A DNA stretch of 42,017 nucleotides from positions 1-42,017 of IMG/VR virus record IMGVR_UViG_3300023223_000570; one strand, given 5' to 3'. The stretch's first letter is position 1; the number at the start of each line of letters is the position of its first letter. Below are positions 5,933-42,017 of this stretch, piece by piece. A program made the position numbers and the translations under genes. This DNA is from a virus. The notes under the pieces are model-generated. The model ran no database searches. It was not told where the DNA came from and worked only from the letters and a program-made list of their open reading frames with translations.

Positions 5933-5972
5933 GGGGGTGAGATTTTTAATCGTTTCTTCGCAGAACACCCCC
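5933..5972 (+). terminator. GC-rich hairpin after the late operon
   Basis: GGGGGTG at 5933-5939 pairs with CACCCCC at 5966-5972 across a 26-nt loop. In so AT-rich a genome this stands out. It lies downstream of the last late gene and could end or protect late transcripts; there is no strong T-run directly after it. Confidence 0.45.
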
Positions 5973-6015
5973 ATTTCCACTCCAGACAATTCATTCTAAG
6001 TAAGTACACTATATG

Positions 6016-6055
6016 TACAATACATACAATCATACATATTATACATACAATACAT
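6016..6055. repeat. ATACA-type AT-rich direct repeats
   Basis: ATACATACAAT occurs at 6020-6030 and again at 6041-6051 (21-bp offset), and TACAATACAT at 6016-6025 and 6046-6055 (30-bp offset), with a CATACAT between. Such short iterated units are typical of initiator-binding iterons or operators; no initiator gene is recognised here. Confidence 0.6.
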
Positions 6056-6112
6056 TTATTTATAGGCTAGTTTCCATACGTTCCATAGGAAGTCTATTCG
6101 TTTCCTTTGCAA

Positions 6113-6615: not shown

Positions 6616-6761
6616 TAAGATTAAAATCGAAGAATACTGAGATAATAGAAGGAGAAGTAATTAAAGATAAAACTATAAGGAAAACTAAGCCTATTAAATA
6701 TGAAAATAGAGACAAGGAAGATATAATAAAAGTTAGAAAAATATTGAAAATGTTCAAATAG
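6612..6761 (+). CDS. Small basic protein (49 aa)
   Basis: ATG overlaps the previous stop (ATGA), giving MIRLKSKNTEIIEGEVIKDK and 29 more residues, strongly lysine-rich. No family recognised. The tight overlap with the ribbon-helix-helix gene suggests co-translation and perhaps a partner role. Its stop codon ends at the first base of the next promoter. Confidence 0.55.
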   Translation: MIRLKSKNTEIIEGEVIKDKTIRKTKPIKYENRDKEDIIKVRKILKMFK

Positions 6762-6776
6762 AAAGATTTATATAGT
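6761..6776 (+). promoter_or_regulatory. Early-class BRE/TATA promoter 1
   Basis: GAAAGATTTATATAGT: purine-rich BRE (GAAAGA) directly before TTTATATA, about 27 bp before ATG 6797, a textbook archaeal leaderless arrangement. The same 16-mer with one change lies at 11954-11969 in front of the second AbrB-type gene. Confidence 0.7.
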
Positions 6777-6796
6777 ATAATATCCTATAAAATACA

Positions 6797-6919
6797 ATGA
6801 AAACACAGATAAAAAAAATAGGAACAAGTAAAGGAATAATCCTTTCCAAAGAGTTCCTAAAATATCATGATTTAAAAGAAGGAGACTGGGTAGACATCTC
6901 AGATATAGTAAAAAAATGA
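6797..6919 (+). CDS. AbrB/MazE-type DNA-binding protein (40 aa)
   Basis: MKTQIKKIGTSKGIILSKEF then LKYHDLKEGDWVDISDIVKK is the swapped-hairpin AbrB/SpoVT fold: the KIG.SKGI(I)LSKEFL strand-turn and L.EGD.V.I.. end. These dimers bind DNA and act as transcription regulators or antitoxins; the usual domain is 45-50 residues, so this is a minimal copy. It has its own leaderless promoter and overlaps the next gene by ATGA. No toxin is recognised beside it, so a regulator is more likely than an antitoxin. Confidence 0.75.
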   Translation: MKTQIKKIGTSKGIILSKEFLKYHDLKEGDWVDISDIVKK

Positions 6920-7050
6920 ATGCGCAAAATTTAATAGATACTTGTGATAAGTATAACTTCAATCTTATACAATCCCGAAAAGAGATGAATATTTCTTGGT
7001 TGCTAAATGATATAATTAAACAATATAAGGAACAAAATGAAACCAATTAA
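6916..7050 (+). CDS. Small helical protein (44 aa)
   Basis: Starts inside the AbrB-type stop (ATGA). Sequence includes FNLIQSRKEMNISWLLNDII, which could be the helix pair of a minimal ribbon-helix-helix or antitoxin-like protein, but the evidence is weak. Overlaps the next gene by 14 nt. Confidence 0.5.
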   Translation: MNAQNLIDTCDKYNFNLIQSRKEMNISWLLNDIIKQYKEQNETN

Positions 7051-10324: not shown

Positions 10325-10576
10325 ATGAAATACATAAAATCAAAAAAAATAAGCAAACAAAAATATGAATTAACTTTAGAAGTTTCTGAATATGATATAG
10401 AAATGTTTGAAGACCTAGCATTAACCTACGATCCATTCCAAGAATATCATGACAATAAAGAAAAGTTAGGACCAGACTTTGAATTACCAAGCACTTACTT
10501 CACAGAGAAGTATCAAAAGTGGATAAATAAAACATGGAGGACTTTTTGGAAGTTGTGGAAACACCACGACGACTAA
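10325..10576 (+). CDS. Hypothetical protein (83 aa)
   Basis: MKYIKSKKISKQKYELTLEV, then an acidic middle and a tryptophan-rich end (WRTFWKLWKHHDD). An in-frame TTG at 10313 overlaps the previous stop (TTGA) and would add four residues; ATG 10325 is chosen as the commoner codon. No family recognised. Confidence 0.55.
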   Translation: MKYIKSKKISKQKYELTLEVSEYDIEMFEDLALTYDPFQEYHDNKEKLGPDFELPSTYFTEKYQKWINKTWRTFWKLWKHHDD

Positions 10577-10592
10577 GATAGTTAAGACGAAT

Positions 10593-10775
10593 ATGGAATA
10601 TAATAAAGAACAAAGAGAGAGTCTAATAAAAGAATCCATTGGTAAAACAATTATAGGATTAGAATGGGATAGTGAAGATAAATATTGGATTATGGAATTT
10701 AATGATGGTTCAGAAATGTCATTTAGATTTATGGCTGAATTAAATTCGTACACCAAACCAAATACGAAACCATGA
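10593..10775 (+). CDS. Hypothetical protein (60 aa)
   Basis: MEYNKEQRESLIKESIGKTI, then IGLEWDSEDKYWIMEFNDGS, a small two-stranded beta pattern. Unknown function. Overlaps the HNH gene by ATGA. Confidence 0.5.
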   Translation: MEYNKEQRESLIKESIGKTIIGLEWDSEDKYWIMEFNDGSEMSFRFMAELNSYTKPNTKP

Positions 10776-11827: not shown

Positions 11828-11856
11828 ATTAATTTAAAATCAACTTATTATTATTT

Positions 11857-11875
11857 GCCCCAATGTTTGTGGGGC
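11857..11875 (+). terminator. Hairpin terminator candidate
   Basis: GCCCCA (11857-11862) pairs perfectly with TGGGGC (11870-11875) over a 7-nt loop, some 30 bp after the stop of the preceding gene and after an AT-rich run. Confidence 0.5.
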
Positions 11876-11921
11876 TTCACATTCGCATAAGAACTAGGAG
11901 ACGTCACTACTATAAAGTAAT

Positions 11922-11972
11922 CGGACTAATATGTTGTTATTAATAAATAGTCCGAAAGACTTATATAGTCCG
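11922..11972. promoter_or_regulatory. Operator: three TAGTCCG sites at promoter 2
   Basis: CGGACTA (11922-11928) and TAGTCCG (11948-11954) form an inverted repeat; a second direct copy, ATAGTCCGA, lies at 11965-11973, 18 bp on, and overlaps the TATA box. A protein bound there should block TBP/TFB. A candidate ligand is one of the AbrB-type, ribbon-helix-helix or winged-helix proteins of this genome. Confidence 0.6.
11954..11969 (+). promoter_or_regulatory. Early-class BRE/TATA promoter 2
   Basis: GAAAGACTTATATAGT differs from promoter 1 (6761-6776) by one base. The TATA centre at about 11964 predicts transcription from about 11988-11991, which is where the 5' strand of the leader RNA's closing helix begins. 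Confidence 0.7.
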
Positions 11973-11989
11973 ATACACTAGTATAATTA

Positions 11990-12091
11990 ACCTTAATGGG
12001 CGGACACTCCACGCTTCGGAAGAAGAGGAGGGAGAACGCTTAATTGATTAAGAACAGGTAAGAGGGATTTTTATTCCGAACCCGTTAAGGT
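11990..12091 (+). ncRNA. Multi-branched structured leader RNA (about 102 nt)
   Basis: ACCTTAATGGG (11990-12000) pairs with CCCGTTAAGGT (12081-12091): 11 bp with one G-U. Inside are three possible hairpins: CTCC (12007-12010) with GGAG (12027-12030), enclosing CTT-CGG-AAG (12014-12022); CTTAA-TTGA-TTAAG (12039-12052); and GGGAT-TTTT-ATTCC (12064-12077). It ends 10 nt before the ATG of an AbrB-type gene. A 15-codon ORF (11996-12043, MGGHSTLRKKRRENA) overlaps it. It does not match a riboswitch, tRNA or SRP RNA that I know. Structure is from hand pairing. Confidence 0.6.
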
Positions 12092-12101
12092 CAAACTCAA
12101 A

Positions 12102-12266
12102 ATGAAAAAACAAACAAAAATCACACAGGATAAAACCCAAACAAGATCAACAATACCTAAGGTATTTGTAGATGAGTTTGAAGTTACAAAGGATGACAAT
12201 ATTGAATGGGATAACAAGAATGGAAAACTAAAAGGAGAATTAAAGAAAAATGAAAAAACACAATGA
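12102..12266 (+). CDS. AbrB/MazE-type DNA-binding protein 2 (54 aa)
   Basis: TRSTIPKVFVDEFEVTKDDN followed by IEWDNKNGKLKGEL fits the AbrB/SpoVT swapped-hairpin pattern (T.IPK...F.V...D.IEW....GKL). It leads the second early operon behind a promoter almost identical to that of the first AbrB-type gene, which suggests that the two regulators are controlled together. The gene overlaps the next by 17 nt. DNA target unknown; the TAGTCCG sites upstream are obvious candidates. Confidence 0.7.
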   Translation: MKKQTKITQDKTQTRSTIPKVFVDEFEVTKDDNIEWDNKNGKLKGELKKNEKTQ

Positions 12267-12567
12267 ATTTATGAAAGAAGTAGCAGAAGCAAAATCACTT
12301 CCAGCACAAACTAAAAAAGCATTAGGTCCTGAGTCAGATGAAGATAAGAAAATGTATGAAGAAGATAAGGAATGTGCTTGTGGTTATAAAGTTGAAGAAG
12401 ATTCCGAAGGTTGTGGAAAAGTTATTGAAGAGTGGGTTAAAGAAGATGACGATGGAAAAATAATTGATAATGGATGGTATCACTGTGGAGAAAATAGAAT
12501 GTTATGTGATGATTGTCAAAGAACTAAACGAGACGCAGTTTATACCGAAGGCGAGGTAAAAGCATGA
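12250..12567 (+). CDS. Acidic zinc-binding protein (105 aa)
   Basis: Cysteines CACGYKVEEDSEGC, then WYHCGENRMLCDDC, form one or two zinc sites, the second resembling the YCG...LCDSC part of the 8214 protein. The rest is highly charged. GGAG precedes the ATG inside the AbrB-type gene. Unknown function; similarity of the C-terminal cluster to the 8214 protein hints at a shared module. Confidence 0.6.
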   Translation: MKKHNEFMKEVAEAKSLPAQTKKALGPESDEDKKMYEEDKECACGYKVEEDSEGCGKVIEEWVKEDDDGKIIDNGWYHCGENRMLCDDCQRTKRDAVYTEGEVKA

Positions 12568-19009: not shown

Positions 19010-20402
19010 AGATGTTAAGTTTTTATGTAAATTGAATTTCAATGAAGATATTTCCCTACTTCAAGAAATGTTAATAAGAAAGATAGCATTTTGTTTAGAT
19101 TTACTTATATTTAGATTATGTGTATGTGCTATGACTAGATGGGGTAAGTCTTATTGTGTAAGCAGAGGAATAGCACTATTTTTAATGATGAATCGGGATA
19201 AAAAAGTCTACTTCCTTGGTCCAAAAAACGAACAAGCACTAATTTTAAGAGATTATATGACCGAATTGATATTTAAATGTCCAACTTTACTTAACTTAAC
19301 AGATCTAGACAAAGGTCAAGGTAAAGACAAAGCAAAGAAAGAATCAAGTCGTAAGAGAGTAACACTTAGTAAAATGAACAGTGAATATAGAGTATTTAGC
19401 GCAGAGGGAGACGGAAACAGATTAATGGGACACGGATTAGGAATGGGTGGAGGAATAATAGTACTAGACGAAAGCACATTAATAAGCAACGAAGTAAGAG
19501 CCAAAATAACTAGAATGCTTGGAGACGCACCAGACAAAGCAGTAATCTTAGAGTTATTCAATCCTTGGAACAGAGAGTCTAAATCATTTGATCATACAAC
19601 TGATCCAACTTGGGAATATATTCATATCGGATGGGAAGATGCTATAAAAGACGGAAGAATAACCAAAGAATTCATAGAAATGCAAAGAAGAGAGCTAACA
19701 GACATAGAATTCACAGTTTTATACGAATCTCACTTTCCACTTGAATCAAACGATCAATTAATTCCTTATTGGGCAATCCAGAAAGCAATAAGAAACCCAC
19801 CTAAAGACTTTTCACCAGAATTCAAGAAATTAGGCGTAGACCCAGCCGAAAGAGGAATAGACCTAACAGTTAGAACATTAACAGGAAAAAAAGATTCATT
19901 ACATGTAGTATTAAACATAGTAAGCAAAGCAAAAGACGAACCAGCAGTTACTGCAGCAGATATTCTAAAAGATTATGAACGAGATGTATTTCACGAAGTT
20001 AATATAGACTCACTAGGTGTAGGTTCAGGTGTATTTAGTATTTGTAAGAAATACAAAAGAGAAGACTTAATGAAATGTAAGGTGAGTGAGTTTAGAGCGT
20101 CTCAAAGTCCTAATAATGTCAAGGCAAAGAAAGAATTCTTAAATATTAAAACTCAAGCTGGGTTCTTTCTTAGAGAATTATTTGTGTCTGGAAACATAAT
20201 TATCCCACCAAAGATAGCAAAGAACTACCCAACTTTAATTAAAGAACTAGGAGCAATGAAATGGGAACTAACAACAAAGGGACAAAAACACGTAGTAGAC
20301 CCAGGAGTTTTAAAAGATGATCCAAGTGAAAAGAAGTCTCCAGACTTTTATGACAGTCTAGTTAACTCAGTATTCAAAGGAAATAACGTTTTAACAGTAT
20401 AA
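18957..20402 (+). CDS. terL: Terminase large subunit (481 aa)
   Basis: The ATPase has Walker A in MTRWGKSYC (R61-S65) and Walker B IIVLDE (167-172). The RNase H-like nuclease has its acidic residues at D295 (LGVDPAERG), D351 (NIDSLGVGSGV) and D463/D466 (SPDFYDS). Length is normal. The enzyme pumps DNA into the prohead and cuts it. The start inside the small-subunit gene lacks a clear ribosome site, so coupling is likely. Its TAA lies within the next late promoter. Confidence 0.93.
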   Translation: MNQIQEIQTAVNHAIKNKDVKFLCKLNFNEDISLLQEMLIRKIAFCLDLLIFRLCVCAMTRWGKSYCVSRGIALFLMMNRDKKVYFLGPKNEQALILRDYMTELIFKCPTLLNLTDLDKGQGKDKAKKESSRKRVTLSKMNSEYRVFSAEGDGNRLMGHGLGMGGGIIVLDESTLISNEVRAKITRMLGDAPDKAVILELFNPWNRESKSFDHTTDPTWEYIHIGWEDAIKDGRITKEFIEMQRRELTDIEFTVLYESHFPLESNDQLIPYWAIQKAIRNPPKDFSPEFKKLGVDPAERGIDLTVRTLTGKKDSLHVVLNIVSKAKDEPAVTAADILKDYERDVFHEVNIDSLGVGSGVFSICKKYKREDLMKCKVSEFRASQSPNNVKAKKEFLNIKTQAGFFLRELFVSGNIIIPPKIAKNYPTLIKELGAMKWELTTKGQKHVVDPGVLKDDPSEKKSPDFYDSLVNSVFKGNNVLTV

Positions 20403-41317: not shown

Positions 41318-42017
41318 ATGGCACACCCATTACAGCAGGGAACAAAAAGAGTTGATGTTTTTACTGGTTCTACTCCCACACAAGGAGGAACCCAAGTAAG
41401 TACTTCTAATAGATTTCCAGTAGATAATTTTCCAAGTAGTGACTTTCCTACTAATATAGCCCTCGGTTTAATACCTGGAACTGAATTTAGGCAAGTATTC
41501 GGAGTAAGTTCAGTAGGAATAGGCGCAGGAGCTGAACAAGTCTTAGGGGATGGAATGACTGTGAGATACCCGTTTCCGAGTATTGCAGTACAAATGATTA
41601 TAGAAAGTGATTCTACTGATGATACTTCAGCTGGGACAGGTGCTCAGGTAATGCTGGTTAGAGGAAATATAACAGACAATGTTGATTTATTTGAATCTGT
41701 TTTGCTAGACGGAACTACTCCAGTAACAACAATTAATGATTATTTCAGAATAAATAGTACTTTGATAGTAAGTGTTGGATCTGGTGGTAAAAATGCTGGA
41801 ACTATTACATTGAAAAATGGCTCTGATTTACTTGCACAGACAGATATAGGAAATAATTTAAGTAGAACTGCTGTTTATTCTATACCAGCCGAAGTCACAG
41901 GAGTCCTGACTGCTTTTGAGTTACTTGCAGGGAAAGGGGATAATGGTACAATAATAACTCATCTTTTCCCTTCTGCTTTGGGAAACATAGATTTTTCTGC
42001 ACTTACTCAAAATACTT
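41318..42017 (+). CDS. Tail fibre/receptor-binding-type protein, N-terminal part (runs off the window)
   Basis: MAHPLQQGTKRVDVFTGSTP begins the 334-residue protein that ends at 449. The region with FRINSTLIVSVGSGGKNAGT and ITLKNGSDLLAQTDIG, then AVYSIPAEV, is a beta-sandwich known from tail and fibre proteins of marine phages. The start is 5 bp after the previous stop without a good ribosome site, so coupling is likely. There is no stop before the window ends. Confidence 0.85.
   Translation, partial: MAHPLQQGTKRVDVFTGSTPTQGGTQVSTSNRFPVDNFPSSDFPTNIALGLIPGTEFRQVFGVSSVGIGAGAEQVLGDGMTVRYPFPSIAVQMIIESDSTDDTSAGTGAQVMLVRGNITDNVDLFESVLLDGTTPVTTINDYFRINSTLIVSVGSGGKNAGTITLKNGSDLLAQTDIGNNLSRTAVYSIPAEVTGVLTAFELLAGKGDNGTIITHLFPSALGNIDFSALTQNT
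41874..42017. repeat. 144-bp direct repeat of the window's start
   Basis: Identical to 1-144; see there. It contains part of the junction-crossing tail gene and no promoter. Confidence 0.95.

Follow-up and report, generated by a model that had tools for sequence, protein, structure and literature searches.

A candidate structured leader RNA between an operator-flanked promoter and an AbrB-type gene in a tailed virus with archaeal-type promoters

Results

A predicted stable RNA domain precedes an AbrB-type gene

Analysis of a 42,017-bp virus record (the window, examined over its full length) revealed a 102-nt RNA element that appears to begin at the transcription start predicted for an operator-flanked promoter and to end shortly before an AbrB/MazE-type gene. 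Two viruses that are otherwise largely unrelated carry the same promoter-repressor cassette with protein genes in the slot, so that the RNA looks real, with a putative function; no second copy of it was found. Both were reached via the AbrB gene: IMGVR_UViG_3300009788_000056 (G001, cassette locus L002) and JAFCGI010000006.1, contig 21 of G002, which is also IMGVR_UViG_3300033148_008057 (cassette locus L004). The element and the genes that follow it are:

11990..12091, plus strand: structured RNA element, 102 nt, closed by a terminal helix
11990..12000, plus strand: 5′ arm of the closing helix, ACCTTAATGGG
12081..12091, plus strand: 3′ arm of the closing helix, CCCGTTAAGGT, containing AAGGT (12087-12091), the sole Shine-Dalgarno (SD)-like sequence of the AbrB gene
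12102..12266, plus strand: AbrB/MazE-type DNA-binding protein gene, 54 aa, assigned through PF04014, which the G001 homologue reaches
12250..12567, plus strand: cysteine-rich protein gene, next in the operon and partly shared with G001

The 11-bp closing helix described in the initial annotation, with its single G-U pair, was recovered at a predicted probability of 0.98-1.0 for 10 of the 11 pairs and 0.72 for the outermost one, and it does end 10 nt ahead of the AbrB gene, the ATG of which lies at 12102. As a 5′ leader the element is more stable than expected for its composition, with a minimum free energy of −31.1 kcal/mol compared to −21.5 on average for shuffles (z −3.35; none of 200 folded as well), ranking second by z among 68 gene-leader segments of equal length and being the most stable of the eight best-ranked. 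Its GC content of 0.46 falls in the top 1.5% of 102-nt windows in this 34% GC genome. Helices of 11 bp and like span are not rare genome-wide (7 in the window versus 5-11 in dinucleotide shuffles), and those with GC-rich arms number 3, two of them being one overlapping helix, versus 0-2 in shuffles. The weight of the element lies in position, stability and composition jointly; helix length alone is no rarity. The best z of the 68 leader segments (−4.05) belongs to 10481-10582, before a start at 10593.

The interior of the element is predicted with less certainty than its closing helix

The interior fold is uncertain in the models, whereas the closing helix is firm. The features enclosed by the helix, with predicted pairing probabilities (p), are:

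12001..12004, plus strand: CGGA, forming an inner helix with UCCG at 12075-12078 (p 0.55-0.70)
12007..12034, plus strand: hairpin 1, CUCC pairing with GGAG, for which two registers exist (p 0.5)
12039..12052, plus strand: hairpin 2, CUUAA-UUGA-UUAAG (p about 0.3)
12064..12077, plus strand: hairpin 3, GGGAU-UUUU-AUUCC (p about 0.25), competing with the inner helix
12072..12080, plus strand: operator-like TATTCCGAA in the RNA, one mismatch from TAGTCCGAA, partly in the inner helix
11996..12043, plus strand: near-leaderless 15-codon ORF, MGGHSTLRKKRRENA, read from the sequence and maybe due to chance

In the minimum free energy fold, CGGA/UCCG lengthens the closing helix and hairpin 3 is excluded. 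The three hairpins initially placed inside the helix (loops CGG, TTGA and TTTT) are together near-optimal, at −30.0 versus −31.1 kcal/mol and thus 1.1 costlier, but their probabilities reach only about 0.5, 0.3 and 0.25. The pairing of CTCC with GGAGG proposed for the first of them survives as CTCC with GGAG at p 0.5, in two registers.

Other roles for the fold were also considered. An alternative pairing of UUCGGAAGAA with UUAUUCCGAA as a switch is 5.3 kcal/mol worse and has a probability of 0. An archaeal bulge-helix-bulge splice site, defined as a 4-bp helix between 3-nt bulges on opposite strands in intron orientation, was rejected because the bulges around CGGA/UCCG, read by eye from the fold, are 2 nt long and on the wrong sides. 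A match as good as TATTCCGAA occurs in 3.6% of other windows and in 6.6% of shuffled elements; its presence in the leader is a lead only, one that would allow AbrB to bind RNA too.

Searches for homologues of the RNA

The early impression that the element fits no known class agreed with the Rfam comparison, in which 0 of 4227 families reached the gathering score in the window. Three sub-threshold matches had E values of 5.8-8.1, at the level of chance, and the best CRISPR-repeat-type match was CRISPR-DR43 (13.9 bits, E 8.1), in a comparison that covered the CRISPR repeat families of Rfam. Among 2.9 million viral contigs, none matched the paired-arm pattern of the closing helix; in phages and plasmids, blastn returned matches of 19-27 nt only; and a single-sequence covariance model found no homologue in related contigs or, with stricter filters and no positive control, in 371 genomes of the G002 phylum. 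Diverged relatives would escape both the paired-arm pattern and the single-sequence model. Across Rfam, viral contigs, phages and plasmids, related contigs and the 371 genomes, the element stands as a singleton.

The virus and its promoters

A perfect 144-nt direct terminal repeat (1-144 = 41874-42017) suggests that the window is a complete genome. Its genes include those for an SU10-type major capsid protein, a terminase, a portal protein and tail proteins; by its sequence the virus is tailed, and its promoters are of archaeal type. A comparison with deposited phages gave no close relative, and neither the terminase nor the gene upstream of the element led to any relative. A late-promoter motif is repeated at 20396, 23281, 26283, 29594, 31186, 32916, 37975, 38929 and 40882; it consists of RTATAACAAAG and, after it, an AT-rich TATA-like box. 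At seven late promoters the distance from ACAAAG to the ATG is 34-38 nt (35 nt in five of the seven), which by sequence is the leaderless geometry of late genes; two further copies of RTATAACAAAG lie 71 and 76 nt upstream of genes. SD sequences are frequent at operon-internal genes of this virus.

Two regions elsewhere in the genome deserve mention: a 421-nt gap between ORFs at 6616-7036 (24% GC), possibly an origin or regulatory region, and a non-coding stretch on the minus strand at 5950-6091 with a fold z of about −3.4. A Pacearchaeota host, the bin label of G002, is not claimed, and we name no host because none of the 370 further genomes sampled in that phylum has the AbrB gene. One contig in a genome of the same phylum (G016:C163, 36,231 bp; L071-L072) carries related capsid (56% aa), portal and terminase genes and is devoid of the TAGTCCGA operator; this related virus may help to name the host range.

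The promoter and start site of the cassette

The promoter region upstream of the element contains:

11857..11875, plus strand: hairpin GCCCC-N9-GGGGC at the 5′ boundary of the cassette that the viruses share, seen in the sequence and in a fold of 11840-12110 and kept in G001; likely to signal the 3′ end of the gene before it
11921..11928, minus strand: operator-like site 1, TAGTCCGA, at the same positions in G001
11948..11955, plus strand: operator-like site 2, TAGTCCGA
11966..11973, plus strand: operator-like site 3, TAGTCCGA, overlapping the TATA box
11953..11967, plus strand: BRE-like CGAAAG (11953-11958) and TATA box (A)CTTATATA (11961-11967), between operators 2 and 3
11988..11990, plus strand: predicted transcription start, from the BRE-to-ATG geometry of the late genes and the leaderless ATG of the G001 promoter

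A start 34-38 nt after the BRE-like sequence at 11953 would fall at 11987-11991. In the homologous promoter of G001, where the TATA box is CGAAAGACTTAAATAG, the ATG of a leaderless gene aligns opposite window position 11989. Because genome-specific promoter geometry and this leaderless ATG point to the same place, the prediction that the element begins at the transcription start is well supported; an earlier placement of the start within a few bases of 11990, made from the TATA box at 11961-11967, was borne out by both.

A shared cassette with a variable slot

The promoter (11837-11986) is 83.5% identical in DNA to that of G001, and the AbrB gene region is 79.4% identical both to G001 (12101-12345) and to G002 (12099-12253). 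Elsewhere, a small number of early-region genes and a weak likeness of tail proteins connect the window with G001, and nothing else connects it with G002. All three viruses have three TAGTCCGA sites around the TATA box, spaced by 27 and 18 nt and confined to the cassette in those genomes, with the first site of G002 in reverse orientation relative to the layout of the others. A paired-operator pattern with loose spacing matched 35 stretches; judged by their flanks, nearly all of these were chance matches or unrelated repeats, and only the two known relatives among them had the AbrB gene.

What lies between promoter and AbrB differs in each virus. The slot of G001 holds a leaderless gene for a 120-aa protein, the stop of which overlaps the AbrB start and the product of which has a winged-helix, TFIIE-beta-like match (E 1.4e-5, below the curated cut-off). 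That of G002 holds a short leader, a 74-aa ORF that matches no Pfam family and, directly before AbrB, a 55-nt spacer predicted to fold into two hairpins:

L004:4946-5000: hairpins CTCAC-TTCG-GTGAG and GGGGTTGG-TTT-CCAACCTC, −20.6 kcal/mol, z −4.67

These hairpins could be a partial terminator or an AbrB leader; a match to the L20 leader in the same locus (E 0.026; 23.1 versus 58.7 bits) was taken as chance in AT-rich sequence. In the window the slot contains the RNA alone, and its similarity to the cargo of either relative was not above that of shuffles. Structured RNA thus precedes AbrB in two of the three cassettes. We read the cassette as an exchangeable promoter-repressor module, in which AbrB would bind the TAGTCCGA sites as its putative operators.

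Translation signals of AbrB

The assignment of the downstream gene to the AbrB type, made initially from the translation, is supported indirectly: the window protein is below the PF04014 cut-off, and it is the 82% identical G001 relative that is just above it (25.1 versus 24.7 bits). A structure prediction was of low confidence (pLDDT 57) and was given no weight. SD pairing energies for AbrB are −3.8 kcal/mol in the window, −1.3 in G001 and +1.0 in G002, compared to −6 to −15 kcal/mol at many internal genes of the window virus; the SD is weak or absent in all three cassettes. The AAGGU of the closing helix is paired at p about 0.99, its last base excepted. In the sequence, no upstream ATG, GTG or TTG could lengthen the AbrB frame, and element and gene have no T-run terminator between them. 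When the transcript was modelled to 12270, the bases ahead of the AUG could pair with the AbrB coding sequence.

Discussion

We tentatively propose, while rating it as somewhat short of an even chance, that the element, at the 5′ end of an early viral transcript, is a structured leader that limits AbrB expression. Transcription from the operator-flanked archaeal BRE/TATA promoter would begin at about 11988-11990, and the first ~102 nt of the transcript would fold into one closed domain, the terminal helix of which would take up the weak SD-like AAGGU and leave about 10 mostly unpaired bases ahead of the AbrB AUG. Such a structure could hold repressor translation at a low, steady level and may shield the 5′ end of the mRNA. 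AbrB bound to its three TAGTCCGA operators would turn the promoter off, the early promoter having presumably been active for a while beforehand. We infer the early timing, the repressor role of AbrB, the existence of the RNA as folded and its action in cis on AbrB. A cis role is favoured because the AbrB SD is weak or absent in every cassette, AAGGU lies inside the helix and structured RNA is present in two of the three; the coincidence of the predicted start with the closing helix also argues for it, as do the three operators kept at 27/18 spacing around the TATA box and the lack of an upstream start codon or intervening terminator. Against it, no homologue of the RNA was found; in G001, where the AbrB start and the stop of the winged-helix gene overlap, there is no leader RNA, so AbrB can do without one; AAGGU is a poor SD even when unpaired; and the bases before the AUG have pairing partners in the coding sequence. 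As for a switch, the 15-bp, near-continuous terminal stem looks too stable in the models.

Rather unlikely, in our estimate, is a reading in which a protein cargo was lost and what remains is ordinary untranslated leader or filler, its helix being due to chance or functionless. Such helices are equally common in shuffles, no homologue was found and slot content varies between viruses, all as expected of filler; it fits poorly with the z rank of second among 68 leaders, the unusually high GC and the nearly exact coverage of the interval from predicted start to ATG, and no similarity to putative source cargo genes is detectable. We likewise consider it unlikely that the RNA is itself the cargo, a stable early ncRNA acting in trans on the host (as a decoy or in counter-defence) with AbrB as an Aca-like regulator behind it. 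The slot does differ per virus (RNA, the 120-aa winged-helix gene or the 74-aa ORF) and base pairing closes the domain from the first nucleotide on; in addition, operator-controlled early promoters with variable small genes typify archaeal-virus anti-defence (PMC11065993), and RNA anti-CRISPRs are small ncRNAs that mimic CRISPR repeats, often just 3′ of a promoter (PMC10651486). A terminator or processing site after the element was not seen, however, no Rfam CRISPR repeat family matched above chance, no homologue was found and neither protein cargo is known as anti-defence. Still less likely is the broader proposal of a mobile, AbrB-autoregulated early cassette whose exchangeable slot may hold an ncRNA acting in trans against the host, for example its defence.

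We regard as improbable an attenuator in which translation of the 15-codon ORF at 11996-12043 opens the helix and lets ribosomes reach AbrB. Its ATG is 6-8 nt past the predicted start, within leaderless range, the ORF passes through the 5′ arm and hairpin 1, and the G001 slot has a leaderless ORF; yet the BRE-to-ATG distance is 43 nt, outside the 34-38 nt range, a chance ATG in so short a space is not unlikely, and no homologue shows codon-level conservation. Least probable of all is a small mobile element inserted ahead of AbrB: imperfect 14-nt terminal inverted repeats (TTAACCTTAATGGG/CCCGTTAAGGTCAA) suggest one, but the flanking sequence has no target duplication, a second copy is absent from the window, G001 and the other contigs searched, and no viral contig matches both arms.

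The proposed cis leader and its cassette bear comparison with several known systems. In archaeal-virus anti-defence operons, a conserved regulatory sequence is followed by unrelated small genes (PMC11065993). Similar to acr-aca early operons such as the Aca8-controlled one of SIRV2 (PMC11065993), the window has a strong BRE/TATA promoter in a conserved regulatory sequence, and its cassettes combine variable small cargo with a gene for a small DNA-binding protein. The operator-repeat promoter is common to the viruses while the cargo differs, and a small predicted DNA-binding repressor gene (AbrB/MazE-type) lies downstream of the cargo; by analogy, the slot layout resembles an acr-aca operon with an RNA in the variable position. 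In contrast to SIRV2, the regulator is of the AbrB/MazE type and not the wHTH Aca8, and the cargo is RNA, with no known anti-defence activity. The likeness is one of layout and is not evidence of anti-defence function. Racr anti-CRISPRs, encoded by solitary CRISPR repeats (PMC10651486), are also small structured viral RNAs directly 3′ of a promoter; Racrs, however, mimic the CRISPR repeat, whereas the window RNA has no similarity above chance to an Rfam CRISPR repeat family, is ~102 nt long and multibranched, and would be read through into a protein gene. Translational riboswitches and ribosomal-protein leaders share with the window a multibranched domain in which a closing helix takes up an SD-like sequence, but the window element is without an Rfam match, its closing stem is unusually stable and its SD very weak. 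Aca2-type autoregulation relies on a repressor that binds both DNA and RNA. The window is similar in pairing a repressor and promoter operators with the operator-like TATTCCGAA in the leader RNA, where binding is putative; the AbrB fold is different, and the match in the RNA is a single 8-mer that carries one mismatch, expected by chance in about 4-7%.

If the cassette is read correctly, three TAGTCCGA sites at 27/18 spacing together with the AbrB family would serve as bait for early cargo, proteins and RNAs alike, in a group of archaeal-type viruses of which we found no characterised member. If the RNA had neither a cis nor a trans role, it would be an ordinary leader. Acting in trans, it would be a structured early ncRNA carried as cargo by such a virus; acting in cis, it would mean that an Aca-like repressor is also controlled at the RNA level.
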